A DNA stretch of 64,000 nucleotides from Streptomyces sp. WM6386 (GTDB lineage Bacteria > Actinomycetota > Actinomycetes > Streptomycetales > Streptomycetaceae): positions 3,877-67,876 of the forward strand of contig NZ_JXTE01000051.1 in the NCBI RefSeq assembly GCF_000972385.1. The letters are read 5' to 3'. A model generated the notes under the pieces. That model ran no database searches. It was not told the DNA's origin and was given only the letters and a program-made list of their open reading frames with translations. The position numbers and the translations under genes were made by a program. Position 1 is the stretch's first letter. Each line of letters starts with the position of its first letter. Positions 45,002 through 63,885 of this stretch are shown piece by piece.

Positions 45002-45859
<858 letters not shown>

Positions 45860-45943: not shown

Positions 45944-46372
45944 GTGCGTCGTCACATCGTCGCGCTCCTGGCCGCCACCGCCACCGCCGCCGCACTGGGC
46001 GTCGCGGGGGCGCCCTCGGCTTCGGCCGCCGCACTGGTGAAGAGCTGCTCCACATCGGACGGCGGAGCCAGCGGTGGCATGCAGTGGGACTGGAACAGCA
46101 AGAAGAGCATGGATGTCGCCCTGATCCTGGCCGACACCGAGGCGGACAGCAACTGGGTCCGCATCCGGCTCGACATCACCACCGGCGAGGGCAACCGCTA
46201 CACCTACAAGTGGCGCGAACTCCGCGACGGCAACGGCTCCAACAAGACCTGGACGACCACCGCCACGCATGACGACGGCATCGTCAGTGCGCGTGTGCAG
46301 GTGGAGGACGTGCACGGGACGAGCCCGCAGTCGACGTGTTACAGCGGCAAGGCGTACAACTCGTACTACTAG
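45944..46372 (+). CDS. Small secreted hypothetical protein
   Basis: A 142-residue protein with a Sec signal peptide (MRRHIVALLAATATAAALGV, cleaved near ASA-A, residue ~28). The mature part has two Cys that may pair, a Trp-rich segment (MQWDWNSKKSMDVAL) and a beta-rich look (TYKWRELRDGNGSNKTW); no family recognised. Single gene ended by a strong hairpin. RBS GGGGAGGAA precedes the GTG start. Confidence 0.8.
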   Translation: MRRHIVALLAATATAAALGVAGAPSASAAALVKSCSTSDGGASGGMQWDWNSKKSMDVALILADTEADSNWVRIRLDITTGEGNRYTYKWRELRDGNGSNKTWTTTATHDDGIVSARVQVEDVHGTSPQSTCYSGKAYNSYY

Positions 46373-46390
46373 GGCGCCGGTTGCGTGCGG

Positions 46391-46419
46391 ACGGGCCCCG
46401 GCGTGATGCCGGGGCCCGT
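46391..46419 (+). terminator. Terminator after the small secreted protein
   Basis: Perfect 12-bp stem ACGGGCCCCGGC (46391-46402) with GCCGGGGCCCGT (46408-46419), five-base loop and a following TTCCT. It begins 18 bases after the stop codon. Confidence 0.85.
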
Positions 46420-46552
46420 TCCTCTGCACTGCCCCCGGGCGTCCCCCACTCCTGCCCCGTCAGCCTCACCCGTGCCGACCGTTACTACTGTGTCTGCGAT
46501 GGCGAACACGGTCACGCCACTCGCACGCGCGTCACGACGGGGAAGGCCCACC

Positions 46553-48898
46553 ATGGAGACACTGCAGCCGGACGACCCGCGGGAGCTGGGGAGTTACCGC
46601 ATGCTGCGGCGGCTCGGGGCCGGTGGCATGGGACGGGTCTACCTCGCCCGTTCGCCCGGTGGCCGTACCGTCGCCGTGAAGGTCGTCCGCCCGGATCTGG
46701 CGGCGGACGCCGACTTCCGGAGCCGGTTCCGCCATGAGGTCGAGATAGCGAAGGCCGTCTCCGGCCGCTACACCGCTCCCGTCGTGGACGCCGACCCCGA
46801 GGCGCCACTGCCGTGGCTGGCGACGTCGTACGTGCTCGGCCCGGACCTCACGGACGTGGTCGCCGCGCACGGCGCGCTGCCCGAGCGGACCGTGCGCGCG
46901 CTGGCCGCGGGGCTCGCCGCGGCCCTTCAGGAGATCCACGCGGCGGGTCTGATCCACCGCGACCTCAAGCCCTCGAACGTCCTGCTCGCGGCCGACGGCC
47001 CGCGCGTCATCGACTTCGGCATCGCGCGTGCGGTGGACGGAAGCCGTATGACGCAGACGGGAGTCGTGGTCGGCTCTCCCGGATACATGCCGCCGGAGCA
47101 GGCGCTGGGCAAGGACGTGGGGCCCGCGGGCGACATCTTCTCGCTGGGCGCGGTACTGGCCTTCGCGGCGACCGGCCGCGGGACTTTCGGCGACGGTGCC
47201 GTCTCGCACGCGGCACTGCTCTACCAGGTCGTCCATGGCGAGCCGGACCTCAGGGACGTACCGCCGTCCCTGCTCGGCCTGATCCGCGCCTGTCTGCAGA
47301 AGGATCCGGCACAGCGGCCGGCCCCCGCCGAGATCGTCGCGGCACTGGCTCCGCAGGGCGTCGAGGGCGTACTGAGCGACTGGCTCCCGTCCGCGGTGGC
47401 CTCGACGATCGCCACGCACGCGGCGGGGATCCTGGACCTCGAGGCGCCGGCTGCGGCCGGGTTCGGCCCGGCGCCGACGACGGCGGGTCACGCGGGGACG
47501 GGTACGCCCACGCCGGGCTACGGATATCCGGCCGCGCCGGGCTACGGCACTCCCCCCGGAGGCACACCCGCGCCGGGTTACGGCACTCCCTCCGGAGGCA
47601 CACCCGCGCCCGGTTACGGATATCCGCCCGCCCCGCAGCCGGGCACCGTACCGCTGGGTGCCGCCCCGGCCGCCGCCTCCTCCCCGTCCCGCCGTCGCGC
47701 CCTCACCCTCGGGCTCGGCGGGGCGGCAGCCGTCGTCGCGGTCGGTGGTGGTGCCGCGTGGTGGCTGGGCTCGGCCGGGGAGACCTCCGGCAGCGGGACG
47801 GGCGCGGCGGGCGGGGGAGGGTCGGCGCGGCCCGTCGAGGAGAGCTTCACGACTCCGCCGGCCGGAGTGGCGCCGCAGCCGCTGTGGCGCAAGAAGGTCG
47901 CCGAGGACAGCACATCGTCGGCCGTACCGCTGCTCACCCATGACGGGCTGCTGCTGGTCAGCGGTGACCCGCTCGTGGCGTACGACGTGAAGACCGGCAA
48001 GACACGCTGGTCCGGATCCGGCATCTGCCGGCCCGGCGCCCCGCTCCTCTTCCACGGCGGCAAGGTGTTCCTGGCCGACGGCGACTACGACGGCGTACTC
48101 GTCGCCTGCGACGTGAAGACCGGCGACGAGGCCTGGCGCAGCCGGCTCGGCAAGAAGATCACCGTCGAGGACACCATCGCCATCGACGACAAGAACGTCT
48201 ACGTCACGGCGACCGACTACAGCGACTCCCGGAGCGCCACCAAATACCGCACCGCCATCGCCGCCATCAACCACACCACCGGTACGAAGGTGTGGCTCCA
48301 GAAACGGGACTGGGGCACCAAGGACTACGACGTCCAGGGCTCCGTCCTGGGCAAGTACCTGGTCTACGCCGACTCCAACCACAACCTCACCGTGCGGTCC
48401 ACCGCCACCGGTGCCCAACTGTGGACCAAGAAGATCGGCGACGACTGGAGCTGGCGGCCCACCATCGCGAACGGTCTGGTCTTCCTGCCGGGCGCGACGC
48501 TGAGGGCCGTCGACGCGGACACCGGTGAGGTGAGCTGGACGCTGTCGCCCAACGGCCGCCGCGGTTTCAAGAATCCGACCGTCATCGACGGGGTGCTCTA
48601 CGTCAGCGACTACGACGGTGGCGTCTGGGCGGTCGACGTCAGGACGCGCAAGCGGATCTGGCTCTGCGACGAACTGGAGATCTCGGGCCCGGAGACGTTC
48701 GTGAAGGCCGGCAACTCCCTTTACGGGGCCGCCGGTTCCCTGGACGGCGGGCTCGTCGCCCTCCAGGCCAGGACCGGCAAGCTCCGCTGGACCTACACCG
48801 ACAGCGACAACTGGGGCGAGCCGTGGCAGGTCGCCCTCGCCGGCAACCGGCTGCTGGTGTCGAACGGGCCGGAGTTCTACGCGCTGGCGGCTGTCTGA
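46553..48898 (+). CDS. Ser/Thr protein kinase with PQQ-type beta-propeller sensor
   Basis: A 781-residue membrane kinase. Cytosolic N-terminal kinase domain: glycine loop LGAGGMGRVYLA, Lys in VAVKVVRPD, catalytic HRDLKPSNV near 135 and DFG near 153, APE-like SPGYMPPEQA. A Pro/Gly-rich linker with repeated TPAPGYG units follows (about 300-370), then one transmembrane helix near 385-403 and an extracellular seven- to eight-bladed PQQ-like propeller (APLWRKKVAE, VVAYDVKTGKTRW repeats). It may sense an external ligand. It converges on the EccC gene, only ten bases from its stop. ATG at 46553 has GGGGAAGG upstream. Confidence 0.93.
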   Translation: METLQPDDPRELGSYRMLRRLGAGGMGRVYLARSPGGRTVAVKVVRPDLAADADFRSRFRHEVEIAKAVSGRYTAPVVDADPEAPLPWLATSYVLGPDLTDVVAAHGALPERTVRALAAGLAAALQEIHAAGLIHRDLKPSNVLLAADGPRVIDFGIARAVDGSRMTQTGVVVGSPGYMPPEQALGKDVGPAGDIFSLGAVLAFAATGRGTFGDGAVSHAALLYQVVHGEPDLRDVPPSLLGLIRACLQKDPAQRPAPAEIVAALAPQGVEGVLSDWLPSAVASTIATHAAGILDLEAPAAAGFGPAPTTAGHAGTGTPTPGYGYPAAPGYGTPPGGTPAPGYGTPSGGTPAPGYGYPPAPQPGTVPLGAAPAAASSPSRRRALTLGLGGAAAVVAVGGGAAWWLGSAGETSGSGTGAAGGGGSARPVEESFTTPPAGVAPQPLWRKKVAEDSTSSAVPLLTHDGLLLVSGDPLVAYDVKTGKTRWSGSGICRPGAPLLFHGGKVFLADGDYDGVLVACDVKTGDEAWRSRLGKKITVEDTIAIDDKNVYVTATDYSDSRSATKYRTAIAAINHTTGTKVWLQKRDWGTKDYDVQGSVLGKYLVYADSNHNLTVRSTATGAQLWTKKIGDDWSWRPTIANGLVFLPGATLRAVDADTGEVSWTLSPNGRRGFKNPTVIDGVLYVSDYDGGVWAVDVRTRKRIWLCDELEISGPETFVKAGNSLYGAAGSLDGGLVALQARTGKLRWTYTDSDNWGEPWQVALAGNRLLVSNGPEFYALAAV

Positions 48899-53829: not shown

Positions 53830-54129
53830 ATGGCCAAGGACACAGACCTTACTTATTCCGAGATGGAGAAGAAGGCCAACGACCTCATCAAGGCGATGGG
53901 CGACATGGAAGACATGTTGAAGTCCATCGAAAAGGGTGTCGAGGAGCTCGTCGCCAACGGCTTCACCACCACGAAGGCCTCCGGCGCCTACGACGAGTCC
54001 ATCAAGGACTTCACCAAGGGCGCGGCGAAGACCGTCAAGGGTCTGGAGGGTCTGTCCAAGTTCCTCACCAACGCGAAGAAGGCGTACGAGGACCTGGACG
54101 ACCAGCTGGCGAAGAGCGCCAAGGGCTGA
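53830..54129 (+). CDS. WXG100-like small secreted protein (T7SS)
   Basis: A 99-residue all-helical protein with WXG100 size and a helix-turn-helix centre, but no Trp: the turn reads VANGFTTTKASGAYD. The end AYEDLDDQLA gives the YxxxD/E export signal of type VII substrates. It lies divergently next to eccC. A stable hairpin directly after its stop suggests it is made in larger amounts than the following genes. Confidence 0.78.
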   Translation: MAKDTDLTYSEMEKKANDLIKAMGDMEDMLKSIEKGVEELVANGFTTTKASGAYDESIKDFTKGAAKTVKGLEGLSKFLTNAKKAYEDLDDQLAKSAKG

Positions 54130-54149
54130 GCCTGCCACGGGCGACACAC

Positions 54150-54187
54150 CCCGGTGCGACGGGACCTGAACGTCCTGTCGCACCGGG
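54150..54187 (+). terminator. Hairpin after the first WXG100-like gene
   Basis: CCCGGTGCGAC (54150-54160) pairs exactly with GTCGCACCGGG (54177-54187); GGGA and TCCT inside may add pairs. It starts 21 bases after the stop. There is no T-run, so partial termination or mRNA stabilisation are both possible. Confidence 0.65.
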
Positions 54188-54256
54188 CTGTCTGTCGCCG
54201 GGCTGTTTTCAACGGGGTGCCGGCTCGGGCCGGCGGATCGACATGATGGGGGCGCC

Positions 54257-54571
54257 GTGGCGGGCGAGAGCGATCAGCGGCTCGACCTTGAAGTGATCAA
54301 GGAAATGGGCAAAGGGCTCGGCAATATCAAGAAGGCGTTCGACGGCCTGGAGGATCTGGGCGGCAAGTACGAGGACGACTTCGGGAACGGCGATCTCGCC
54401 GACAAGTTCGGGGACTTCGCCGACAACTGGAAGCTCAGCCGTAAGAGGCTGACGGAGGAGATCGACGTGCTGGCCCAGATAGCCAAGGCCGCGGGGCAGG
54501 CGTACGAGGACATCGACCATCAGTTGGCCCAGGCACTTCGTGATGCCCAGGATCCGAAGAAGGGGAACTGA
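54257..54571 (+). CDS. WXG100-like protein with YxxxD signal
   Basis: A 104-residue helical protein: DLEVIKEMGKGLGNIKKAF, the loop region GDFADNWKLSRKRL (W about 59) and C-terminal AYEDIDHQLAQAL with YxxxD. Paralogous to the protein encoded at 61194-61511 (shared GDF-x3-WK and YE-x2-D). GTG start with GGGGG upstream. Three bases separate it from the large effector-like gene, so they are translated as a pair, probably forming a heterodimer for export. Confidence 0.78.
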   Translation: MAGESDQRLDLEVIKEMGKGLGNIKKAFDGLEDLGGKYEDDFGNGDLADKFGDFADNWKLSRKRLTEEIDVLAQIAKAAGQAYEDIDHQLAQALRDAQDPKKGN

Positions 54572-54574
54572 CCG

Positions 54575-55969
54575 ATGGCTGGACGCCCACGCGACTGGCA
54601 CCCCGTCGCGGACAGTGACCCCATACCCGGGGACGCCGACCGCATGGCGTCCCTGGGCAAGACGCTGCGCAAGACGGCGGACGAGGTCGAACGCCAGATC
54701 CGTAATCTGAAGGCCGTCGCCGAGGTCGACGCCTGGGACAGCAAGGCCGGTAAGGAGTTCCGCGAAAAGGCCTCGGGCAACGTCAAGAAGCTCGAGGCGG
54801 TTTTCAAGAGGTACGACACCGCCGCCACGGCGATCGGTAGCCGTGTCGATGAAGTGGGCGGCGGATACCAGGACAAGCTGACCGCCGGCGCGAAGAACTA
54901 CGCCTCCGACCTCAACCGCGCCCAGGAGATAGCCGACGCCGCCCTCAAGGACGCGAAGGACGCCGACGACCGCAAGAGCGCGTCGCAGAAGAGCATCGAC
55001 GGACTGTCCGGCAAGGACCGCAAGAAAGAGGACGCCGACAAGGACCGCAAGGACCTGGAGGCGAAGCGGGACGCGGCCGGTGACGAGATCGAGGCCGCAC
55101 GGGAGAAGATCAACGAGGCCAAGAGGATCCGTGACGCCGCCGCCAAGCGCGCACGTGAGTCCCTGGACGCGGTCATCAACCATGACTCCCTGAAGGACGG
55201 GTTCTGGGAGACCCTGACCGACAGCATCGCGGAGATCACCTCCTGGGTCGCCACCGTATGTGGAATCCTCTCGCTGATCGTCGGCTGGATCCCGGTGATC
55301 GGGCAGGCCCTGGCCGGTGTGCTGGGCGCCATCGCCATGATCGCGACACTCATCAACTTCATCGCCACGCTCGTCCAGGTCGCCCAGGGCAACGCCGACT
55401 GGATGGATGTCGGAATGGCGGCCCTCGGATTCCTGATGATGGGTGTCGGAAAGGGCTTCTCCAAGATCGCGGGCAAGTTCGCGAAGAACACCCTGGGGCG
55501 GGTCGTAAAGGCCGGAGGGGCGCGCACCGCCAAGCAGGTGAGCCGGGCCAACAAGAATCTGCGGCGGGCCGCCTACAAGGACGTGAAGTTCCAGAAGGGC
55601 GACATCATGAAGTCGCTCAAGGAGCCTTTCACGGAACCTTTCTCGAAGGCCGCGTGGGCGAAGAACCTGAAGACGCTGAAGCCCGGCGGCGGAAACTGGG
55701 CCGCGGCCAAGAACGAGTTGGGCCTGCGCGGCGGGGGAAGCGCTCTCAAGGGAATGCCCAAGTCGTTCTCCATGGCCGACCCCGGCGTCGCGTCCGATCT
55801 GAAGTCGGTCAAAATGGGGACCGCGGCTCTGGGTGGTCAATTCGATGCCAACGCCGTCAACCAGATCTCCAAGTCTGCCAGCCGTCTGTCCATCGTCGGG
55901 GCCGGTATTACCCTGGGCGGGCTGGGCCTGGACGGGAACCTTCAGAAGATGGTCGGTCTCGGTGGCTGA
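54575..55969 (+). CDS. Large T7SS-signal-type protein with hydrophobic core
   Basis: A 464-residue protein. N-terminal ~130 residues are a WXG/LXG-like helical hairpin (VDAWDSKAGKEFREKASGNV, then a long coiled-coil), as in the T7SS signal domain of secreted toxins. A charged coiled-coil continues to ~190. Hydrophobic helices (WVATVCGILSLIVGWIPVIG, ALAGVLGAIAMIATLINFIA) span ~225-275, followed by a basic, glycine-rich C-terminal region with no toxin domain I recognise. Probably a secreted or membrane-inserting T7SS client. Its paralogue is the frameshifted gene at 59840-61197. Confidence 0.7.
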   Translation: MAGRPRDWHPVADSDPIPGDADRMASLGKTLRKTADEVERQIRNLKAVAEVDAWDSKAGKEFREKASGNVKKLEAVFKRYDTAATAIGSRVDEVGGGYQDKLTAGAKNYASDLNRAQEIADAALKDAKDADDRKSASQKSIDGLSGKDRKKEDADKDRKDLEAKRDAAGDEIEAAREKINEAKRIRDAAAKRARESLDAVINHDSLKDGFWETLTDSIAEITSWVATVCGILSLIVGWIPVIGQALAGVLGAIAMIATLINFIATLVQVAQGNADWMDVGMAALGFLMMGVGKGFSKIAGKFAKNTLGRVVKAGGARTAKQVSRANKNLRRAAYKDVKFQKGDIMKSLKEPFTEPFSKAAWAKNLKTLKPGGGNWAAAKNELGLRGGGSALKGMPKSFSMADPGVASDLKSVKMGTAALGGQFDANAVNQISKSASRLSIVGAGITLGGLGLDGNLQKMVGLGG

Positions 55970-56014
55970 GCCCCTGCTCGACGGAGCGTCCACACCCGCA
56001 CGAAAGGACCGAGC

Positions 56015-56665
56015 ATGACCGCACCGGACGATCCGGCCCCGCTGGACGAGACTTTCGAGTGCACCTTTGAGTTCCAGCCGGGCTGGATCGATCTGACGCT
56101 GCGCGAAGGCACCAAGGCCGAGGCCAAGGCGCTGGCCACGGAGGTCGTGAACCGGCTCAATCCGCTCGGCCTGGAGATCGAGAAGAGCGCGGTCTTCGAC
56201 GACATGGTCGAGCGGGCCGTCGACCTCAACGACGACGTGCCCACCCTCGCGGCGGCGTACTACTCCGAGGCGGGGGAGGCCCTGGCCAACCTCATGGTCG
56301 ACTCCTACGGCGACGAGGGCGTGCCGCGCCCCGGCGCGGACGAGGTCATCCCGCTGCTTCTGGAGTGGGGAAACGCACAGGTCACAGGCGCCCCCGAGAT
56401 CACCCACCTCGAACTGGCCGCCGGACCCGCCGTGCGCATCCAGGCCATGCTCCAGGCCAATCGCATGCTCGGCTTCGGCCGGAAGCTGACCGAGTTCATC
56501 AAGTACGCCGTCTTCCCGCCCGATATGCAGAGTCTCATCGTCGTCACGGTGACCTGGGAGAAGATCGCCGTCACCGAGCGGATCGCCGAGCTGGCCGACG
56601 AGGCGGTCCGCACGATGCGGATCACCCCGCTGCCGACGCGTCCCACCGAGGGGGGTACGGCATGA
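56015..56665 (+). CDS. Hypothetical protein of the T7SS-associated cassette
   Basis: A 216-residue soluble protein with no signal or membrane segment. It is mostly acidic, with alternating strands and helices (FECTFEFQPGWIDLTLREGT, VTVTWEKIAVTERI). It may share the PsbP/Mog1/DcrB-like layout of the next protein, but this is only a pattern impression. Stop overlaps the start of the next gene (ATGA). Placement after an exported-protein gene suggests a chaperone or immunity-type role (inference). Confidence 0.65.
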   Translation: MTAPDDPAPLDETFECTFEFQPGWIDLTLREGTKAEAKALATEVVNRLNPLGLEIEKSAVFDDMVERAVDLNDDVPTLAAAYYSEAGEALANLMVDSYGDEGVPRPGADEVIPLLLEWGNAQVTGAPEITHLELAAGPAVRIQAMLQANRMLGFGRKLTEFIKYAVFPPDMQSLIVVTVTWEKIAVTERIAELADEAVRTMRITPLPTRPTEGGTA

Positions 56666-57273
56666 GGACGGCCGACCAGTTCTCCTCGGCACCCACGGAC
56701 TACAACGTCGTCGTCCCGGACGGCTGGTTCCAGCTCTCACTCGACCCGGAGGAGCGCGACCGGGGCATCATCGCCCTGGCCGAGCTGACGTTCCGCGGCC
56801 AGGACAACGCCCCGCTGCTGAAGAAGCAGTTCATGCAGGACCTCCAGCGCAAGGCGAAGGACGCCTACCAGGTCGGCGGCACGGAGCTCTACCTCTCCAC
56901 GATGGCCGTCGGCCCCGTTCCCCTAGCGTCCTCACTGCTCATCAGCGTTCCCGGCCCCGACGAGTGGCCGGAGACCTCGGACGCCGAGGCACTGGCCGAG
57001 CACCTTGCCGACCGGAGCCGCGGCGACAACGGTGAGATCGGCGTGGTGGACCTGGCCGTCGCCGGCAAGGCGGTACGCCAACGCCGACGCGAAGTGGCCG
57101 ACCCCGCACGGCAGTTGGGCAACACCCTGCCGACCACCACCCTCACGTACTACGTGCCGATCCCGACCACCACACGCTGGCTGCTGCTGAACTTCTCCAC
57201 GCCCATCGATCAGCTCGCCGATCAGATGGTGGAGTTGTTCGACACGGTCGCGGGGACGTTGCACTGGAAGTGA
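56662..57273 (+). CDS. Hypothetical protein, possible PsbP/DcrB-like fold
   Basis: A 203-residue soluble protein starting YNVVVPDGWFQLSLDP and ending TRWLLLNFSTPIDQLADQMV, a pattern like proteins of the Mog1/PsbP/DUF1795 fold. The protein at 58458-59114 has the same order (VPGGFTEL ... MAVLMLSTTAERRQQY), so the two cassettes share this component. Function unknown; translationally coupled to the gene upstream. Confidence 0.65.
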   Translation: MRTADQFSSAPTDYNVVVPDGWFQLSLDPEERDRGIIALAELTFRGQDNAPLLKKQFMQDLQRKAKDAYQVGGTELYLSTMAVGPVPLASSLLISVPGPDEWPETSDAEALAEHLADRSRGDNGEIGVVDLAVAGKAVRQRRREVADPARQLGNTLPTTTLTYYVPIPTTTRWLLLNFSTPIDQLADQMVELFDTVAGTLHWK

Positions 57274-57279
57274 GCGGGG

Positions 57280-57837
57280 ATGAGTGAGCCGGAGGCGGAG
57301 TTCCGCGTCCGGGACGGGTTCATGTTCGCCGGAGTGGCGCTGACCCTGATCGCCCTCGGATTCGTGTTCGTCGTGACCATGGGCGCTTGGAAGTGGTTCG
57401 TACGGACCTCGGCTCCGACGGTGCTCAACTGGCCCGGCGGATCATGGGGGTTCGGCATGGCTTGCGGCCTGCTCGTGGTCTTCGGCTCACGCGGTGCCTG
57501 GCGGTTCTTGGAGCGACCCCGAGGTGAGTCGCTGCCGGCGCGTGCGGGACGCATGGCCGGTCTCACGGTGTGCGTCGGCGCGGCATTCGGCGCGGTGCTG
57601 TACATCATCGCTTCCCTGCCCGGCAGGAACTGCCCTTCGTACCGTGACGGTTGCGAGTACATCCCGGGGACGGGCGGTGCGCTCGTCACCTGCCTGGGCA
57701 CTGCGGCGCTGGTGGGCTACGTGGTGTATCGGGTCCGCAGCGTGCGCGCCGAGCGACGCCAGGCTGGTGAGCGGGAACGGCTGCGAAAGCTGCGTAAGAA
57801 GGGGAAGGGGAAGAGCCGGGCGGCTCGGCGGGGATAG
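57280..57837 (+). CDS. Four-helix membrane protein of the T7SS-associated cassette
   Basis: A 185-residue membrane protein with four transmembrane segments (near residues 14-35, 50-68, 90-110 and 130-150) and a strongly basic C-terminal tail. Two Cys lie in an exterior loop between helices 3 and 4 (NCPSYRDGCEY) and may form a disulfide. It ends the plus cassette and converges on the similar-sized membrane protein of the minus cassette (22-base gap). Confidence 0.65.
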   Translation: MSEPEAEFRVRDGFMFAGVALTLIALGFVFVVTMGAWKWFVRTSAPTVLNWPGGSWGFGMACGLLVVFGSRGAWRFLERPRGESLPARAGRMAGLTVCVGAAFGAVLYIIASLPGRNCPSYRDGCEYIPGTGGALVTCLGTAALVGYVVYRVRSVRAERRQAGERERLRKLRKKGKGKSRAARRG

Positions 57838-57859
57838 CGGGGCCGCGCGAGGAGACGAC

Positions 57860-58438
57860 CTACGGCGTTCGCTGTCGGCGGTTGTGCAGAACCAGGGCGC
57901 AGGCGATTGCTGCCAGCGCGGCGATGGTGCCGAGCAGACCGACGGACCAGAGCCAGGGGAAGTTGCGGAACACCCAACTGGGCGGTGTGTCACGTCCCCT
58001 GCCCCACTTCCCGGTGTCCTGGGCGTTGAAGACGAGGGCCACGTAGGGCACGAGCGCAGCCAGGCTGACGATGGCCGCCCCGGTACTGAGCACGGTGCTC
58101 CCCGGATGCTCCCGCCAGGACCTCCACCGCATCCGGCTCAGACAGAACAGCGACAGGACGAACACGCACGGCCCGACCACGCCGACGCAGGCCGCGAAGC
58201 CGTACGCGCCGCCAGGCCAGGTCTCGGCCGCCCACTGCCATGTGCCGTCGCCCCAGAGCCGGTCAAGGACGGCCAACAGGACGATGATCGCCGCAAAGCC
58301 GAGGAACAGCAGACAGCCGAAAGCCCATTCACCCTTCTTCTCAGCCCTGTCGGCGGAGCCCGGTTTGCCGGACCGCCGTTCGTAGCGCAGCGCGGGCGCG
58401 GATGCTTTACGGCGTCGCGGCTTGGCGGACCCTGCCAT
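57860..58438 (-). CDS. Membrane protein of the minus cassette
   Basis: A 192-residue membrane protein with a basic N-terminal tail (KPRRRKASAPALRYERRSGK) and about four transmembrane helices. Size, topology and cassette position match the plus-cassette membrane protein at 57280, though the tails are at opposite ends. Function unknown. ATG at 58438. Confidence 0.65.
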   Translation of the reverse strand: MAGSAKPRRRKASAPALRYERRSGKPGSADRAEKKGEWAFGCLLFLGFAAIIVLLAVLDRLWGDGTWQWAAETWPGGAYGFAACVGVVGPCVFVLSLFCLSRMRWRSWREHPGSTVLSTGAAIVSLAALVPYVALVFNAQDTGKWGRGRDTPPSWVFRNFPWLWSVGLLGTIAALAAIACALVLHNRRQRTP

Positions 58439-58457
58439 GTCTGTGTCTCCGTGTGGC

Positions 58458-59114
58458 TTAGGTCTTGAGCAACGGCGATTCGAAGCTGGTGAGTTCAGCA
58501 ACCTGCTGAAGGATCTCGCGGTACTGCTGTCGTCGCTCCGCCGTGGTACTCAGCATCAGGACTGCCATCCGCTTGCAGTCAGGGTGAGGGAGGTATGCGT
58601 AGATCTGGAGCAGCGGGGTCGCCGGGAGGCCGGATTCGGGAGTCGGCGTGCGTACGGTCTCACTCATCGACGCGGGGCCGCTGGGCAAGTCCATGTACTC
58701 GATGTGAGAGTGCTCCTCCACCGTGGCAACTGCCCGTGCCGCGCTCGCCGACCGCGGGGCCCAGGCGATGTCTCGCCAGGACACGGTGAAAAGCGAGTGC
58801 AGAATGGCGCCGCTGTCCCCCTGCACGTCGTCGCGATGCACTCCGAGGGAGCAATGAACCGTGCCCACTTCGCTCAGCGCACGCAGGAGTTGCTGGCCCG
58901 ATGCCAGCTGAGCGATGAACTGCTGACGGGTAACGCCGTCCGAAATGCTTTCGACCAGTGGAGCGAGTGCTTCCCGGAGCCGTTCCGCCTCGGCGGAAGC
59001 AGGCGAGGCGAGGAGAACGTCGATGGGCAACTCGGTGAAGCCGCCGGGTACGGCGAACCAGATGTCAGTACTGGGGTCAGTGACGGAATCGGCGATGATG
59101 ACGCGAGATGTCAT
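58458..59114 (-). CDS. Hypothetical protein, counterpart of the 56662 protein
   Basis: A 218-residue soluble protein with the same order of features as the protein at 56662-57273: WFAVPGGFTELPIDVLLASP at the start, hydrophobic strands in the middle, and an ending with QIYAYLPHPDCKRMAVLMLS then RRQQYREILQQVAELTSF. Likely the same fold. It is the fourth gene of the minus cassette. Function unknown. Confidence 0.65.
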   Translation of the reverse strand: MTSRVIIADSVTDPSTDIWFAVPGGFTELPIDVLLASPASAEAERLREALAPLVESISDGVTRQQFIAQLASGQQLLRALSEVGTVHCSLGVHRDDVQGDSGAILHSLFTVSWRDIAWAPRSASAARAVATVEEHSHIEYMDLPSGPASMSETVRTPTPESGLPATPLLQIYAYLPHPDCKRMAVLMLSTTAERRQQYREILQQVAELTSFESPLLKT

Positions 59115-59149
59115 GTCTGTGGGTTCCGGAAGATCAGGGAATCGGGGGA

Positions 59150-59815
59150 TCAGGAGTTGGCCGGGCGGACTCCTGCGCGGCGACCACGCTCGATGTCTTC
59201 GGCGGTGGCTCCCCACTCGGCGACGGAATGACGCCCCCCGTCCGCCCCGGTCTGCTGGCTGAGAAAGCGGAAGCGGCGTGGCGCCGATCCATCGGGAGTG
59301 GACGCAGCGATCACGCCGATGAAACGGGGATCTCCCGCGAGCCACACCACGCCGATCTCGGCCTTCAGCTCAGGCGTTGCCCGAGGGGCCATACGGCGGT
59401 GCCACCAGCCCACACCCCAGTGCCGGGGGAACACCATGGGAAGTCGTTCTTCCGGGCGGGCCGGGTTCGGAAACTCGAACCACCCGTATTGCCTGCCGAC
59501 GACATCGGCCCGGTCTGCCAGCCCATGTGCCGTGTCTCTCAGAAGGAGCCACGGGTACTCCTCCAGGACATGCTTCATCCGGAAGACGGCAGGAAAGACG
59601 AACAGCTGGATGAATGCCCGGTAGAAGCTGTAGATCAGGAACGGCACGAAAAGGATCGTGTAGCCGGGCGACAGATACACCACCAGGACTGCCAGCAAGG
59701 AGACCCACAGAGCGATCCAGCCGAGGAGAGCGGCTGCGTTCGCTGCCAACTGCTTCGACCAAGCACGCCGGGTCGGCGGGTGCTCCCATGCGACAGAATG
59801 GTCTGTGGGGTTCAT
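59150..59815 (-). CDS. Hypothetical membrane protein of the minus cassette
   Basis: A 221-residue protein with two N-terminal transmembrane helices (near residues 30-50 and 55-78) and a cytosolic domain of ~140 residues rich in aromatic residues (GWFEFPNPARPEE, HWGVGWWHRRM). No family recognised. It starts 24 bases after the frameshifted large gene. It has no clear counterpart in the plus cassette. Confidence 0.65.
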   Translation of the reverse strand: MNPTDHSVAWEHPPTRRAWSKQLAANAAALLGWIALWVSLLAVLVVYLSPGYTILFVPFLIYSFYRAFIQLFVFPAVFRMKHVLEEYPWLLLRDTAHGLADRADVVGRQYGWFEFPNPARPEERLPMVFPRHWGVGWWHRRMAPRATPELKAEIGVVWLAGDPRFIGVIAASTPDGSAPRRFRFLSQQTGADGGRHSVAEWGATAEDIERGRRAGVRPANS

Positions 59816-59839
59816 ATGAGTTCTCTCTGGTCCTCTGAA

Positions 59840-61197
59840 TCAGAACACGTACTGCGCGAGGTCGATCAGGGCACCGCCGTCCAAGATGCTCCGCGCGCCG
59901 TCGATGCCGGTGCCGGAGTCTTTCGCGCCGTCGTTGTCCAGTGCGTCCACCGCGCTGGAGACCAGACCGTACCCGGCAGTCACGACGCCGAGTGAAGCTG
60001 AGGTGATCTCGACGACCTCACCGGCCTTGGCGGAATTGCTTGCCCCGCGCACCACGAGGTCCAAGGTGGTGTTACCGAGACCGGCGATGGCCTTGGCCTC
60101 ACTCATTGTCTTGGTGCCCAGCGTCGTCATGACTCGCCCGAGGGTCACTGCCTCTTCGCTGGCGCGGAGCGCACTCATCGTTCCCCGTACCCCGATGCCC
60201 ACGGCAGCGACGCCCGGAACGGCTCCCAGGATGTCGCCACCGACGCTGACGAGGTTCCCCCAGAAGTCGGAGTCGAGCTCACCGTTGAGGAAGCCGTCTT
60301 TGAGGGAGACAAGGACTTCGGAGTCGGACAGCCTCATGGTGAGGGCGGAGGCGCTCAACGCGGCCGCAGCGAGGAGCAGGACGGCGGCGGCCGTGCCACC
60401 CGTGGCCACGAACAGGGCCACCAGGCCGATGACACCGGCGGTGAAGCTCAGGATGTCGGGGAGGTTTTCGGTGAACCATTCGCCGAGTTCGTCGAGCCAT
60501 CCAGGCTCCTGAGGAGCCAGCTTGTCGGTGGCGCCGCGGATCTTCCGCGCGCGATATTGAGCCTTCTCCTCGTGCTCCTCGGCGAGTGACTTCGCCCGGC
60601 CGATGATCTTGTCAAGCTCGGCCTGGGCTTCCTCCATTGCGGTGTTCGCCTTGGTCAGGTTCTTCTTGGCCTCGTCCTGACGATTGCCCTTGCCGTCGAG
60701 GTCGGGGTTGTTCTTCGCCGTATCGGCGTGCCCCTTGGCGGCGTCAACGGCATCCTGCGCGGCCTTGGCTTCTTCCTCCAGCTTCCGGGCTCGGCGCTGG
60801 AAGTCGTCGAGTTCGCCCTCCCAGCGGCCCAGCTGTCGCGCGGCTTTGCGGATGGAATGAGCGGCGTTCTTCAGATTGAGCTGAAGCGGCCCGTCCTCGA
60901 GTTGTTCCGGAAGGCGACAGCGGCGTCGCCCTTCCAGTAGCTGCCTTCCATGAGCTTGGTGACGAGCTCATGAGTGTCTTCCAAAGTCTTGGCACACGTG
61001 GACAGCTTCTTGTGCAGGTTGCGCACGGTATCGGTTGTGCCAGGAGTCGGATTAAAGCCGAGGTGAGGGTAGTTGGGATTCGGAATGGACGGAGAGGACT
61101 TGAGGCCTTGGGGCAGCTTGGCGTTTCGTGCGGCCTCCGAGTTGGCATAGGGAGACTGGTCCAGGCTTGGTTGCTCCAGGCCGGGCGTTTCCGTCAC
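59840..61197 (-). pseudogene. Frameshifted large T7SS-signal-type protein
   Basis: Two reading frames make one protein. The first, from a GTG at 61197 (overlapping the WXG gene's stop), encodes TETPGLEQPSLDQSPYANSE and reaches YWKGDAAVAFRNN, the W-x-G/F-R pattern of T7SS signal domains. Near 60900 it shifts and ends in a short tail (SRTGRFSSI). In the -1 frame the natural continuation LEDGPLQLNLKNAAHSIRKA runs into coiled-coil, a TM region (VIGLVALFVATGGTAAAVLL) and a C-terminal domain. One base missing restores a 452-residue protein, close to the 464-residue paralogue at 54575. No obvious slippery heptamer is present, so a mutation or assembly error is more likely than programmed shifting. 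Confidence 0.72.
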
Positions 61198-61511
61198 TTC
61201 TTGCCCTCCGAATTGCCCTTCTTGGCCTTCTCCAGAGCCGCTTCCAGCGCCTTGTCCACTTCTTCGTAGCTGGCCTTGTTCTGGCCGATGATCTTTGCGA
61301 GATCCTCGGTCTGCGAGCCAATCTCCTCGGTGCCGTACTTCCAGTCTTCCTGGAAGTCCCCACATGCTGAGTCCAGATCATCCGTGCCCAGGCCGATGAC
61401 GGTGGCGTCGCTCAGTGCTTTGCGTAGCCCCTTCAAGGAATCACTTGATTTATTCAAGAGCTTCATGAAGTGTGCGACTTCGCCATGGTCTACGGCGAGC
61501 TGCTCAGCCAT
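61194..61511 (-). CDS. WXG100-like protein of the minus cassette
   Basis: A 105-residue helical protein: AVDHGEVAHFMKLLNKSSDS, GDFQEDWKYGTEEI (the WxxG turn) and SYEEVDKALEAAL with the YxxxD export signal. Paralogue of the protein at 54257-54571. Its stop overlaps the GTG of the large gene (GTGA), so the two are translated together and may be exported as a pair. Confidence 0.8.
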   Translation of the reverse strand: MAEQLAVDHGEVAHFMKLLNKSSDSLKGLRKALSDATVIGLGTDDLDSACGDFQEDWKYGTEEIGSQTEDLAKIIGQNKASYEEVDKALEAALEKAKKGNSEGKK

Positions 61512-61569
61512 GTGCCGGTGTCCTCTTCCGTTCAGAGTCGGGTGCGTGAGGTGGCGACGCTATCCAGAC

Positions 61570-62649
61570 CTATCGGTTCACGGCCTGGATCTCCTGGACG
61601 GTGACGGCCTGTTCGTTGCCGAACGTGCCGTTGGGGAGGTCGCCGCCGGTGCCGCCCGTGCCGGTCCAGGCGATTTCCCAGGTGATGGTCGCGCGGAGCT
61701 TGTAGGTGCCGTCGCCGGAGGAGCGGAGGTACTTGAGGCCGCAGGGTGGAGTCTCGTCGGACTTGCCCTTTGCCCAGGGTTCGCCGATGGAGCCGTCGGT
61801 GTTGATGGTGCACTCGCCGGAGGACGGGTAGGTCTGGGCGTCGTCCGTGCCCGGCTCCAGCTTGAGGGACACCGGCTTCGCGGTGGTCGTGGCCTGGATG
61901 TTGAAGCCTGGGACGTTGAGGGCCGCCGTCGCCTGGACCTCGTCGAAGACGGCCTTGTCGAGCCAGGCCCATGTCGGCAGGTTCACCTTGGTGATGGCCT
62001 CGGGTGCGAGGGTGACCTCGGTGTCGGGGAGCTCCATGTGCTGGTACGCGAGGGCGGCGAGCATCTCCGGCTTGATCGCCTCCTCGTACTGGGGCGGCGG
62101 GGCCTCGCCGTTGTCGACCCAGAACGGGATGTCGTTGCACGAGCTCCGCTTGAGGATGTCCGGCTCGTCGGGGTTCTCGACGCCGGCCCAGAACATCCCC
62201 TTGCCGTCCTTGTCGACGTTGTAGTCCTTGTAGCCGGGGGTGTCGGTCCAGCCGTAGTCGTCCTCGTAGTGGCGCTGCAGTTCGTCGAGTGCCGCGCCTG
62301 CGTGGCCGCCCATGCCGGGGGTGTTCATCTGGCTCTCGATGTCCTTGGACATCTTTTCCTTGAAGTCCTTGGCGCCGAGGTAGGGGGCGTACCAGCAGGG
62401 CGGGGGTGTCCAGTTGACGTCGGAGGACGTTACGTTGCCGGTGCCGCCGCCCTTGGCGACGGAGCCGGAGTACTGGATGCGGGCGGCCGCGTAGATGCCG
62501 GTGTCGTCGCTGCCGCCCGTCTCTTTCGTGTTGCCGCCCTTTCCGTCGCCCACACCCGTTCCCGCGTAGGCGGTTCCTGTGAGGGCGAGGGTGCTGAGAG
62601 CCAGCGTCAGCGCTGCTGCGGCGAGGCGTGGTCCACGTGAAGCCTTCAC
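61570..62649 (-). CDS. Secreted hypothetical protein
   Basis: A 359-residue exported protein. The GTG at 62649 overlaps the upstream stop; the signal peptide (LAAAALTLALSTLALTGTAY) is cleaved near AYA-G. The mature part has several Cys, WY-rich segments (CWYAPYLGAKDFKEKM) and a C-terminal beta-rich domain with TITWEIAWTGTGG. No family recognised. It lies upstream of the minus cassette and may be part of it, with 58 bases before the WXG gene. Confidence 0.75.
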   Translation of the reverse strand: MKASRGPRLAAAALTLALSTLALTGTAYAGTGVGDGKGGNTKETGGSDDTGIYAAARIQYSGSVAKGGGTGNVTSSDVNWTPPPCWYAPYLGAKDFKEKMSKDIESQMNTPGMGGHAGAALDELQRHYEDDYGWTDTPGYKDYNVDKDGKGMFWAGVENPDEPDILKRSSCNDIPFWVDNGEAPPPQYEEAIKPEMLAALAYQHMELPDTEVTLAPEAITKVNLPTWAWLDKAVFDEVQATAALNVPGFNIQATTTAKPVSLKLEPGTDDAQTYPSSGECTINTDGSIGEPWAKGKSDETPPCGLKYLRSSGDGTYKLRATITWEIAWTGTGGTGGDLPNGTFGNEQAVTVQEIQAVNR

Positions 62650-63317
62650 TGGCACTTCGCCGCCTTCTCCTCGACGTACACGTTCGACGCCTGCCACAGG
62701 TCGGTACCCGTGGGGTGCTTGACCATGATGATTTTGAAGTAGCTGAAGTCCGTGATGCTGGGGTCGGTCGTGAGGACCTTCCTGGTCTTGATCTCCCTGC
62801 CGTAGAACTTGGTCGAGTCGGAGCAGAACGCCACTTCCACCGACTTGCCGTTCGCGGCGGACCGAGTGGTGGCGTCGTAGTGGCGCCGTGTGCCGGTGAC
62901 CGTCCAGCCACCTTCGATATAGGCGTCGATCTGGGTGTTCGCGTACGTGAGACCGCCGCCGGTCGCGTAGGTGGCGACGGCTGCGCTCTTGGTCGTGCCC
63001 TTGTCGACGCCCTGGTAGATGGCCCGGATGTAATTCGCGGCGTCATCCATCGCCGCCGCCTCGTTCTTGTCCTTCGGCTTGCCCCAGTCGAAGACCAGGT
63101 TGATGTCCTTCGGCAGCGACACATCCACCCCGTCCGGCTTGTCCTCCGCCGGTGCCCCGGAGGCTGATGCCGACGCGCTCGGCGTCTTCGAACCCTGGCC
63201 GGCGCCCGCGATCTTGTCGTTGTCGCTGGCTTTGTCGTCCCCGCTACCGCAGGCCGTCAACAGCAGTGCCGCCGTCGCCGCCAGAGCGGCAGCAACGGGC
63301 AAAGAGCGGCGCTTCAC
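62646..63317 (-). CDS. Putative lipoprotein of unknown function
   Basis: A 223-residue protein with a signal peptide and lipobox LLTAC (Cys about 23), an Asp/Ser-rich linker, then a domain of ~140 residues (INLVFDWGKPKDKNEAA, FSYFKIIMVKH) and a Cys-ending C-terminus. GTG at 63317 has GGGGAG upstream. Overlaps the next secreted protein gene (GTGA), so the two are co-expressed cell-surface proteins. Function unknown. Confidence 0.78.
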   Translation of the reverse strand: MKRRSLPVAAALAATAALLLTACGSGDDKASDNDKIAGAGQGSKTPSASASASGAPAEDKPDGVDVSLPKDINLVFDWGKPKDKNEAAAMDDAANYIRAIYQGVDKGTTKSAAVATYATGGGLTYANTQIDAYIEGGWTVTGTRRHYDATTRSAANGKSVEVAFCSDSTKFYGREIKTRKVLTTDPSITDFSYFKIIMVKHPTGTDLWQASNVYVEEKAAKCQ

Positions 63318-63540: not shown

Positions 63541-63885
63541 CTATCGCCGGGTTCTGCATCTCGGGCAGGCGCACGGTGGATACGCCGAGGTGCGTGGCGG
63601 TGGTTCGGCCCGTCCGCCGGCCAGGATCTCTAGCTTGCCCCGGTCTTCGGTCACGGTCCCGTCGGCGCCGAGCTTGTAGACGCGCAGGGTGAGGCGGGAG
63701 CGGCGGTGGGTGCGGCTGTCGATGAGGTCGAGTGCGTCCGTCTGTGGCGGGTAGTGCACGGCGCAGTCCGGGCAGGCGTAGACGTTGAAGCCGGGGCCGG
63801 TGGCGGCGTGGACCTCGTGGACCAGGACGGGTTCTTCGGTGGTGCGCTCGCAGCGGGCGCACATGCGCAGCGCGGGGCGGGTCAT
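63541..63885 (-). CDS. Hypothetical Cys-rich (zinc-ribbon-like) protein
   Basis: A 114-residue protein with CARC near residues 9-12, CPDC near 38-41 and CPRC near the end, spacing suggestive of zinc binding, and the segment VREVHAA-like LVHEVHAATGPGFNVYACPD. Similar small proteins occur near integrated elements in actinomycetes as I recall, but no function is assigned. Its ATG overlaps the stop of the gene upstream (ATGA). Confidence 0.55.
   Translation of the reverse strand: MTRPALRMCARCERTTEEPVLVHEVHAATGPGFNVYACPDCAVHYPPQTDALDLIDSRTHRRSRLTLRVYKLGADGTVTEDRGKLEILAGGRAEPPPRTSAYPPCACPRCRTRR

Follow-up and report, generated by a model that had tools for sequence, protein, structure and literature searches.

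Two facing, putative effector cassettes encoding proteins of a predicted Mog1/PsbP fold beside a solitary EccC in Streptomyces sp. WM6386

A 64 kb stretch of the draft genome of Streptomyces sp. WM6386 (hereafter the window; the genome is 9.2 Mb in 856 contigs) encodes an EccC/EssC-type ATPase of a type VII secretion system (T7SS) and, next to it, two cassettes of five genes each, which face each other and converge at 57.84-57.86 kb (Table 1). An earlier note on this DNA had described two facing cassettes beside a solitary EccC, a description that was borne out in outline. The plus cassette is ordered A2, A3, A4, A5, A6 and the minus cassette B1, B2, B3, B4, B5. In each, a small WXG100-like protein (E; A2 and B1) is followed by a large putative effector (X; A3 and B2, the latter broken), by one or two members of a third family (M; A4 and A5 in the plus cassette, B4 in the minus cassette, after B3), and finally by a membrane protein (A6 or B5). 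The cassettes were compared with related loci in other genomes, and the role of M in particular was considered.

Table 1. Genes of the EccC locus and its cassettes (window positions)
Feature	Position	Strand	Remark
Ser/Thr kinase with PQQ-propeller repeats	46385..48898	+	converges with EccC
EccC/EssC-type ATPase, 1537 residues	48909..53522	-	N-terminal FHA/YscD-like and possibly YukD-like region
W1, WXG100 protein, EccC partner, outside the cassettes	53830..54129	+	Pfam WXG100 5.3e-12
A2, E gene, WXG100-like, YxxxD near C-terminus	54257..54571	+	Pfam WXG100 17.1 bits, cut-off 27.3
A3, putative effector X, class C5	54575..55969	+	helical hairpin, coil, hydrophobic pair at residues 225-267, variable C-part
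A4, first M protein	56015..56665	+	clade has orphan copies in relatives
A5, second M protein	56662..57273	+	Mog1/PsbP fold (model); proposed Eag-like chaperone
A6, membrane protein, candidate immunity protein	57280..57837	+	three hydrophobic segments; loose tie to class C5
B5, membrane protein, candidate immunity protein	57860..58438	-	four hydrophobic segments
B4, minus-cassette M protein	58458..59114	-	family membership
B3, class-specific protein	59150..59815	-	two hydrophobic segments; adjoins B2-like X in four other genome stretches
B2 C piece, remainder of broken putative effector X	59840..60967	-	carries hydrophobic pair
B2 N piece, WXG-like part of broken X	60871..61197	-	other reading frame
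B1, E gene, WXG100-like, YxxxD near C-terminus	61194..61511	-	Pfam WXG100 16.8 bits, cut-off 27.3
S1, exported protein, start uncertain	61570..62649	-	N-terminal hydrophobic segment; conserved beside cassettes
S2, lipoprotein-like, paired with S1	62646..63317	-	conserved pair with S1

The window EccC matched Pfam FtsK_SpoIIIE (2.8e-60) and, among solved structures, EccC of T. curvata (4nh0, 2.8e-87) and YukB of B. subtilis (9qks, 1.7e-68). It is considered solitary because EccB, EccD and a second EccC-like ATPase are encoded on other contigs: across the whole genome, the sole match to EccB was found on contig C11 and the sole match to EccD on contig C12, and the contig of the window has neither. 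EccB and EccD are thus not encoded with this EccC, as they are in T7SSa (ESX) systems. Contigs C11 and C12 also carry another EccC-like ATPase and a WXG100 pair, and the window locus is therefore a second system. The first 250 residues of EccC are related to PF16697, which we take to be FHA-related; all 26 aligned N-termini matched that family at E 0.1 or better (best 7.1e-10), with the window protein at 21.3 bits, under the cut-off of 33.2. A weak match to YukD was obtained for two of these 26 N-termini, and the nearest solved structure to the region was 3gqs (E 7.9e-4). Further FtsK/EccC-like ATPases, with 33-39% identity to the window EccC over parts of their length, are encoded on contigs C379 and C445.

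The surroundings of EccC were examined in 80 related loci, the best 80 of at least 99 confirmed, of which 79 are from Streptomyces and one is from an Actinobacteria bacterium; 78 entered the gene-order counts (L019 and L046 did not). A gene of the W1 type lies within 1.2 kb upstream of EccC in 77 of the 78. The window locus contains both the ATPase and its accompanying WXG100 protein; W1 had previously been assigned to the plus cassette, to which it does not belong. In 51 of the 71 relatives with enough sequence, the strand opposite EccC carries a kinase no more than 6 kb away, and a full-length match to the PQQ kinase of the window was found in five of the 71.

Profiles iterated over the EccC loci, which were also the loci counted later but whose gene order played no part in the construction, united A2, B1 and W1 in one family (142 members), A3 and B2 in a second (96-98 members), and A4, A5 and B4 in a third (117-120 members). 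A2 and B1 are tied to W1 by the iterated profile only. All three window proteins have a YxxxD motif near the C-terminus, which the earlier note had seen as a feature of these small proteins; in the family as a whole the motif occurs in only 49 of 118 members, against a mean of 17.5 and a maximum of 29 after shuffling. A3 scored 26.3 bits against PF21725 (T7SS_signal; cut-off 27), a family matched at E 0.01 or better by 59 of the 69 aligned X family members. The relationship to WXG100 and T7SS-signal families proposed in the earlier note therefore exists, albeit with A2, B1 and A3 all below the respective Pfam cut-offs. Within the M family, A5 aligned with B4 at E 1e-9 and with A4 at E 4.9e-7 (hhalign); a single protein beginning VPDGW or VPGGF had been expected in each cassette, which is correct for B4, but the plus cassette has two proteins of this VPDGW/FQPGW type, A4 and A5. 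A membrane protein is present at the end of each cassette as described, but A6 and B5 are barely alike.

The kinship of the two large proteins is more distant. In a direct comparison of A3 and B2, the homology search of each did not list the other and a pairwise alignment was not sensible, and their paralogy is based on the iterated profiles and on their shared position after an E gene. Four intact proteins of the B2 type scored 136 to 191 bits with the iterated A3 profile, in whose training B2-type members had been included. Neither of the two results named in the earlier note as refuting it, a lack of WXG100 or T7SS-signal homology and a lack of paralogy between the large proteins, was thus obtained outright. 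One large protein per cassette had been claimed; the plus gene is intact but B2 is spread over two reading frames. Its eight best intact homologues in other genomes are open frames of 455 to 529 residues with 40-58% identity, and the frame change may be a draft error or a real lesion. The predicted hydrophobic core of the large protein was recovered in computed hydrophobic segments. Pfam scans of A3 and both B2 pieces found no recognised toxin or enzymatic domain, in agreement with the earlier note, and no LXG family match at E 0.1; a structure model of A3 had no fold match better than E 0.4.

The order E-X-M is found again both in related loci and beyond Streptomyces, which is more than chance would give. 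X is present in 66 of the 78 loci (one copy in 33, two in 32 and three in 1), and in 19 of the 66 X genes occupy both strands, as in the window; of the 12 loci without X, four are cut within 1.5 kb of EccC. For the 86 X genes away from contig edges, E was found upstream in 81 and M downstream in 82. Two of the four X genes without a downstream M are fragments (L036, L055), and the other two have an M beyond E (L083, L087).

The association was also followed across whole genomes. A strong X match (E 1e-10 or better) was obtained in 28 of 101 Streptomyces genomes, and M was found at the same threshold in all 28 vs 6 of the 73 others (Fisher 1.9e-19); weaker matches, set aside by this threshold, accounted for 15 of 43 genomes in the case of X and for 6 of 40 in the case of M. 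An EccC scoring above 1400 bits is present in 23 of the 28 X genomes vs 1 of the 73 others. In a class-wide sample of 296 genomes, M was found in 46 (18 of 114 genera) and X in 42. Outside Streptomyces, M lies within 3.5 kb at 22 of 28 strong X places, second pieces of one gene being left out, and M is encoded in 18 of 18 X genomes; EccC is also present in 6 of the 12 non-Streptomyces X stretches that were fetched. These observations support the proposal that the cassettes are client-plus-companion units beside EccC.

The N- and C-terminal parts of X differ in their conservation. The 93 X proteins shorter than 700 residues form one cluster by their N-parts and 12 by their C-parts, and class-specific neighbour genes (grouped as U0-U10, clusters of genes near X) change together with the C cluster. 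The exceptions in the tally are one C1 stretch that also carries U3, two C3 stretches with U2 and U3, and one C2 stretch with B3. A constant N-part, a variable C-part and switching neighbours make up the layout of polymorphic toxins. The idea that one cassette is a local duplicate of the other, as the earlier note had it, was rejected, as A3 and B2 fall in different classes (C5 and C11) and the corresponding site in relatives is occupied by yet other classes. B2 is the sole member of C11 among the 80 loci, with an N side nearest to that of C6 members; cassettes of its kind (E, X, B3 and M) were found in four further genome stretches (L151-L154). The stretch L153 has, after B3 and M, a further set of S2, B3 and M.

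An alternative is that X proteins are structural or envelope proteins of Streptomyces that are secreted with their helpers and are not toxins. The lack of a recognisable enzymatic domain, the conservation of the C-part within a class (0.33 in C5 and 0.51 in C2) and the exported S1/S2 pair nearby would be consistent with this. However, the neighbour genes switch with the C-part in the manner of immunity genes, and in WM6386 itself an RHS-repeat protein carries the same N-part. It is therefore improbable that X has such a role.

The RHS fusion is a protein of 1532 residues encoded on contig C390 (L097:7104-11702), with an A3-type N-terminal delivery part, 16 RHS repeat matches, DUF6531 and a T7SS_signal score of 31.4 bits, which passes the cut-off. 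M and E genes lie upstream of it, and S2/S1 are on the same fragment. The PAAR family was found neither in A3 nor in this protein, the short prePAAR motif itself not having been searched for. The N-part also occurs on long, RHS-length proteins in many other genomes. The same hydrophobic region is present in RHS toxins whose C-parts are different, which would suit a delivery module better than a membrane-attacking part; the suggestion that the hydrophobic core acts on membranes was not supported.

M was found somewhere in all 13 genomes with these RHS-length genes in a whole-genome search. That search misses B4-like members, and absences of M are lower bounds: comparison genome G007, first scored as lacking M, has a B2-like X (4.6e-54) within a locus (L151) of E, X, a B4-like M and B3, which leaves G013 and G005 of the three comparison genomes lacking M. 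RHS-length proteins of the same genome have near-identical N-parts (97.7% over 309 residues, 98.6% over 353 residues and, in a third genome, about 91%), and in the first two genomes M adjoins only one of each compared pair. The M and E proteins may therefore be reused in trans by RHS proteins. Higher hydrophobicity was rejected as a predictor of M beside an RHS gene, both groups having two segments with similar peaks. Stand-alone E-M pairs, with no effector found adjoining, were seen at L126 and L128.

To relate M to a part of X, co-divergence was measured over 2471 between-class, between-genome pairs. The N-part of X was tracked by M at 0.664 and by E at 0.678; the corresponding value for W1, which served as the control for genome relatedness, was 0.016, and that for S1 was 0.114 (over 1035 pairs). 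Within the N-part, E correlated with the helical hairpin (0.719) and not with the membrane region (0.012; partial -0.096), whereas M correlated with both the hairpin (0.627; partial 0.504) and the membrane region (0.299; partial 0.31). Effectors of classes C2 and C3 illustrate the same relationship: their N-parts and their M proteins are related (0.28 and 0.275), whereas their C-parts (0.05), U0 (0.077) and U3/U5 (0.00) are almost unrelated. Between-class similarity of C-parts is at the noise floor, and the near-zero correlation of M with the C-part therefore carries little weight alone; the case for a link of M to the delivery part lies in its staying related where the C-parts do not. Together with the RHS fusions, these results favor M as a helper of the delivery part.

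The fold of M was predicted from A5. The structure model (predicted local distance difference test score, pLDDT, 91.4; predicted template modelling score, pTM, 0.87) has a Mog1/PsbP fold, as had been suggested for the VPDGW protein. Among its best fold matches were 3lyd (12.2), TplEi (11.1), Tli4 (10.5) and LpqN (10.4), and it also matched EagT6 with the Tse6 N-terminus (10.4), SciW with the Rhs1 membrane domain (10.3), DcrB (10.2) and Tsi3 (10.0). The M helper therefore appears, in this model, to be folded like chaperones of the type VI secretion system (T6SS). Because the matches include all of these proteins, a chaperone, immunity or other role is compatible with the fold. None of 87 M members matched the relevant Pfam families (DUF1795/DcrB, LpqN and PsbP) at E 0.1. 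A search of the M profile against solved structures gave nothing usable, the top hit being a designed repeat protein (E 8e-4), with CyanoP following at E 0.061.

M could instead act in targeting, as an adaptor that brings the E-X pair to EccC in the manner of EspG or EsaE; it would then bind the helical shaft rather than the membrane segment. EspG, EsaE and EspK are the known globular chaperones of T7SSs (PMC10765036; papers are cited here and below for their available text), and the co-divergence of M is strongest with the helical hairpin. However, M, and not E, correlates independently with the membrane region, and the M fold resembles that of known membrane-segment chaperones; EspG, EsaE and EspK are not among the listed matches of A5, an absence that excludes nothing. 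This possibility is considered unlikely, although less so than a structural role for X.

The explanation that we favor, with a probability of about 0.55, is that the cassettes carry polymorphic effectors, belong to a minimal EccC system of the FHA type and provide, in M, an Eag-like chaperone. The FHA-type EccC, W1 and the nearby kinase would form the core of this second, minimal T7SS, served by two exchangeable putative effector cassettes. E would pair with the WXG-like hairpin of X and so route X to EccC, while M, above all A5, would bind the N-part of X and sheath its transmembrane hairpin in the cytoplasm of the producer, as Eag proteins do. Once X was exported, presumably through the window EccC, the hairpin would help the variable C-part to act in or across the membrane of a competitor, and class-specific genes (perhaps A4 or A6, and B3 or B5) would protect the producer. 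The proposed chaperone mechanism is probable enough to be worth testing.

Several observations weigh against this explanation. Sixteen of 147 M genes lying more than 1.5 kb from a locus edge were flagged as outside an X operon; these orphans include those of L083 and L087, just beyond E, and three in the A4 clade (L018, L027 and L043). RHS toxins were expected to be generally flanked by M and are not: of 20 RHS-length genes with the N-part, five have M and three have E within 4 kb. A6-like membrane genes were found in 14 loci, ten of them without a C5 effector, and at the tail of other classes (4/19 C0, 1/17 C1 and 1/9 C4), but in only 3/7 C5 cassettes, a looser association than a cognate immunity gene would predict; A6 is accordingly a weaker candidate for immunity to C5 effectors.

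The orphan M genes would be better accommodated if M proteins were immunity proteins against the adjoining effector, like Tsi3 and Tli4 in T6SSs, and the membrane proteins something else. TplEi/Tli4 and Tsi3 have the same fold, PsbP/MOG1 domains are among the fusions of SuFu-family immunity proteins (PMC3482391), and two or more M genes accompany 38 of the 86 X genes; the frequent lack of a nearby M beside RHS genes is also on this side. Against an immunity role, M remains related where C-parts are unrelated, and one M appears to serve several RHS proteins that share an N-part. The A5 clade of 20 members, furthermore, has no flagged orphan (support 0.595; one member is without a nearby X). We consider it doubtful that M proteins as a family confer immunity. 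As orphans occur in the A4 clade and none was flagged in the A5 clade, A4 may therefore be an immunity protein built on the M scaffold, with A5 retaining the role of chaperone in the favored explanation.

A close known parallel is provided by the Eag chaperones of T6SSs, which bind and distort effector transmembrane segments (PMC7773334, PMC12881460). As in the Eag and prePAAR effector pairs (EagT6-Tse6 and SciW-Rhs1), a small cytosolic protein of Mog1/PsbP fold is encoded with an effector bearing an N-terminal transmembrane region, and RHS effectors occur in both. The window differs in having T7SS genes and not VgrG/PAAR, no Pfam-level relationship was detected, Eag proteins are of ~140 residues vs ~200-220 for M, and binding is known for Eag and proposed for M. 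PsbP/MOG1 genes adjoining T6SS toxins were proposed to encode an adaptor by Zhang et al. 2012 (PMC3482391), and a 2025 paper treated the fold as diagnostic of T6SS secretion (PMC12419801); Eag is likewise tied to T6SSs in two papers that also treat T7SSs (PMC12605009, PMC8636562). No report of a Mog1/PsbP fold in a T7SS role was found among the matches listed by literature searches that covered open-access journal papers.

Among T7SSs, subtypes c to j have been described without mention of Streptomyces in the main text, T7SSd being the nearest (Garrett et al. 2024, PMC11217815). T7SSd shares with the window WXG100 proteins, an FHA-region ATPase, a Ser/Thr kinase, occurrence in Actinomycetota and RHS or small toxins nearby; TsdH and TsdI are further components of T7SSd, and no Mog1/PsbP protein is described in the available text of that paper. 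LXG effectors of T7SSb are accompanied by Lap targeting factors (PMC9600955), and there too a small WXG-like partner precedes a polymorphic effector and candidate immunity genes follow it; unlike T7SSb, the window belongs to the Actinomycetes and has no LXG Pfam match, one E in place of Lap1 and Lap2, and an additional Mog1/PsbP protein. EspG, EsaE and EspK resemble M as globular helpers of helical T7SS substrates but differ from the predicted A5 fold. TspA-TsaI and the glycine-zipper toxins are, as described, membrane-acting T7SS effectors with an immunity gene, whereas the hydrophobic pair of X is in the constant part, common to RHS toxins. Other reports concern a Listeria EssC variant linked to an Rhs toxin with small helical partners (PMC10327511) and Streptomyces alarmone-synthetase toxins adjoining T7SS components (PMC12691689).

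With slightly less confidence than an even chance would warrant, we also suggest that M is the T7SS counterpart of Eag in Gram-positive bacteria, that E, for the helical hairpin, and M, for the membrane part, form a delivery unit that is portable and is borrowed in trans by RHS toxins, and that the locus represents a minimal Streptomyces T7SS consisting of hardly more than an FHA-type EccC, a WXG100 protein and a kinase. Two unrelated contact-dependent weapons may then handle membrane-seeking cargo alike, sharing one solution for cargo that inserts into membranes, and entry of T7SS toxins into target cells would depend on the hairpin. If so, a PsbP/MOG1 gene would no longer be diagnostic of a T6SS, contrary to PMC12419801. 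The cassette classes also provide, for Streptomyces, a catalogue of C-parts not yet recognised and of candidate immunity genes.

To our knowledge, the solubility of T7SS effectors with membrane segments and the entry of T7SS toxins into target cells are open questions. The predicted fold of the helper and its apparent tie to the delivery part make both testable by simple co-expression.

The remaining observations concern the flanks of the locus and its composition. One or both of S1 and S2, for which a Pfam search gave no family, are present in 48 of the 73 loci with at least 6 kb upstream, and they also occur at two cassette sites elsewhere in the WM6386 genome (L097 and L098), where no EccC is present in the fetched stretch. 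A small protein with paired CxxC motifs (cluster U8) is encoded at 63541-63885 and recurs near S2 in some relatives. The G+C content of the cassettes (54001-62000) is 0.636-0.684, compared with roughly 0.70 for most of the window, and there is strong AT skew at 54-56 kb and 60-64 kb; together with the low G+C, this resembles recently exchanged DNA. On the other side of the locus, a small secreted-looking protein is encoded before the PQQ kinase (45944-46372) and was found in 1 of 71 relatives examined, and the gene at 45011-45859 is an ordinary one, for a menaquinone biosynthesis protein (PF02621, 1.8e-74).

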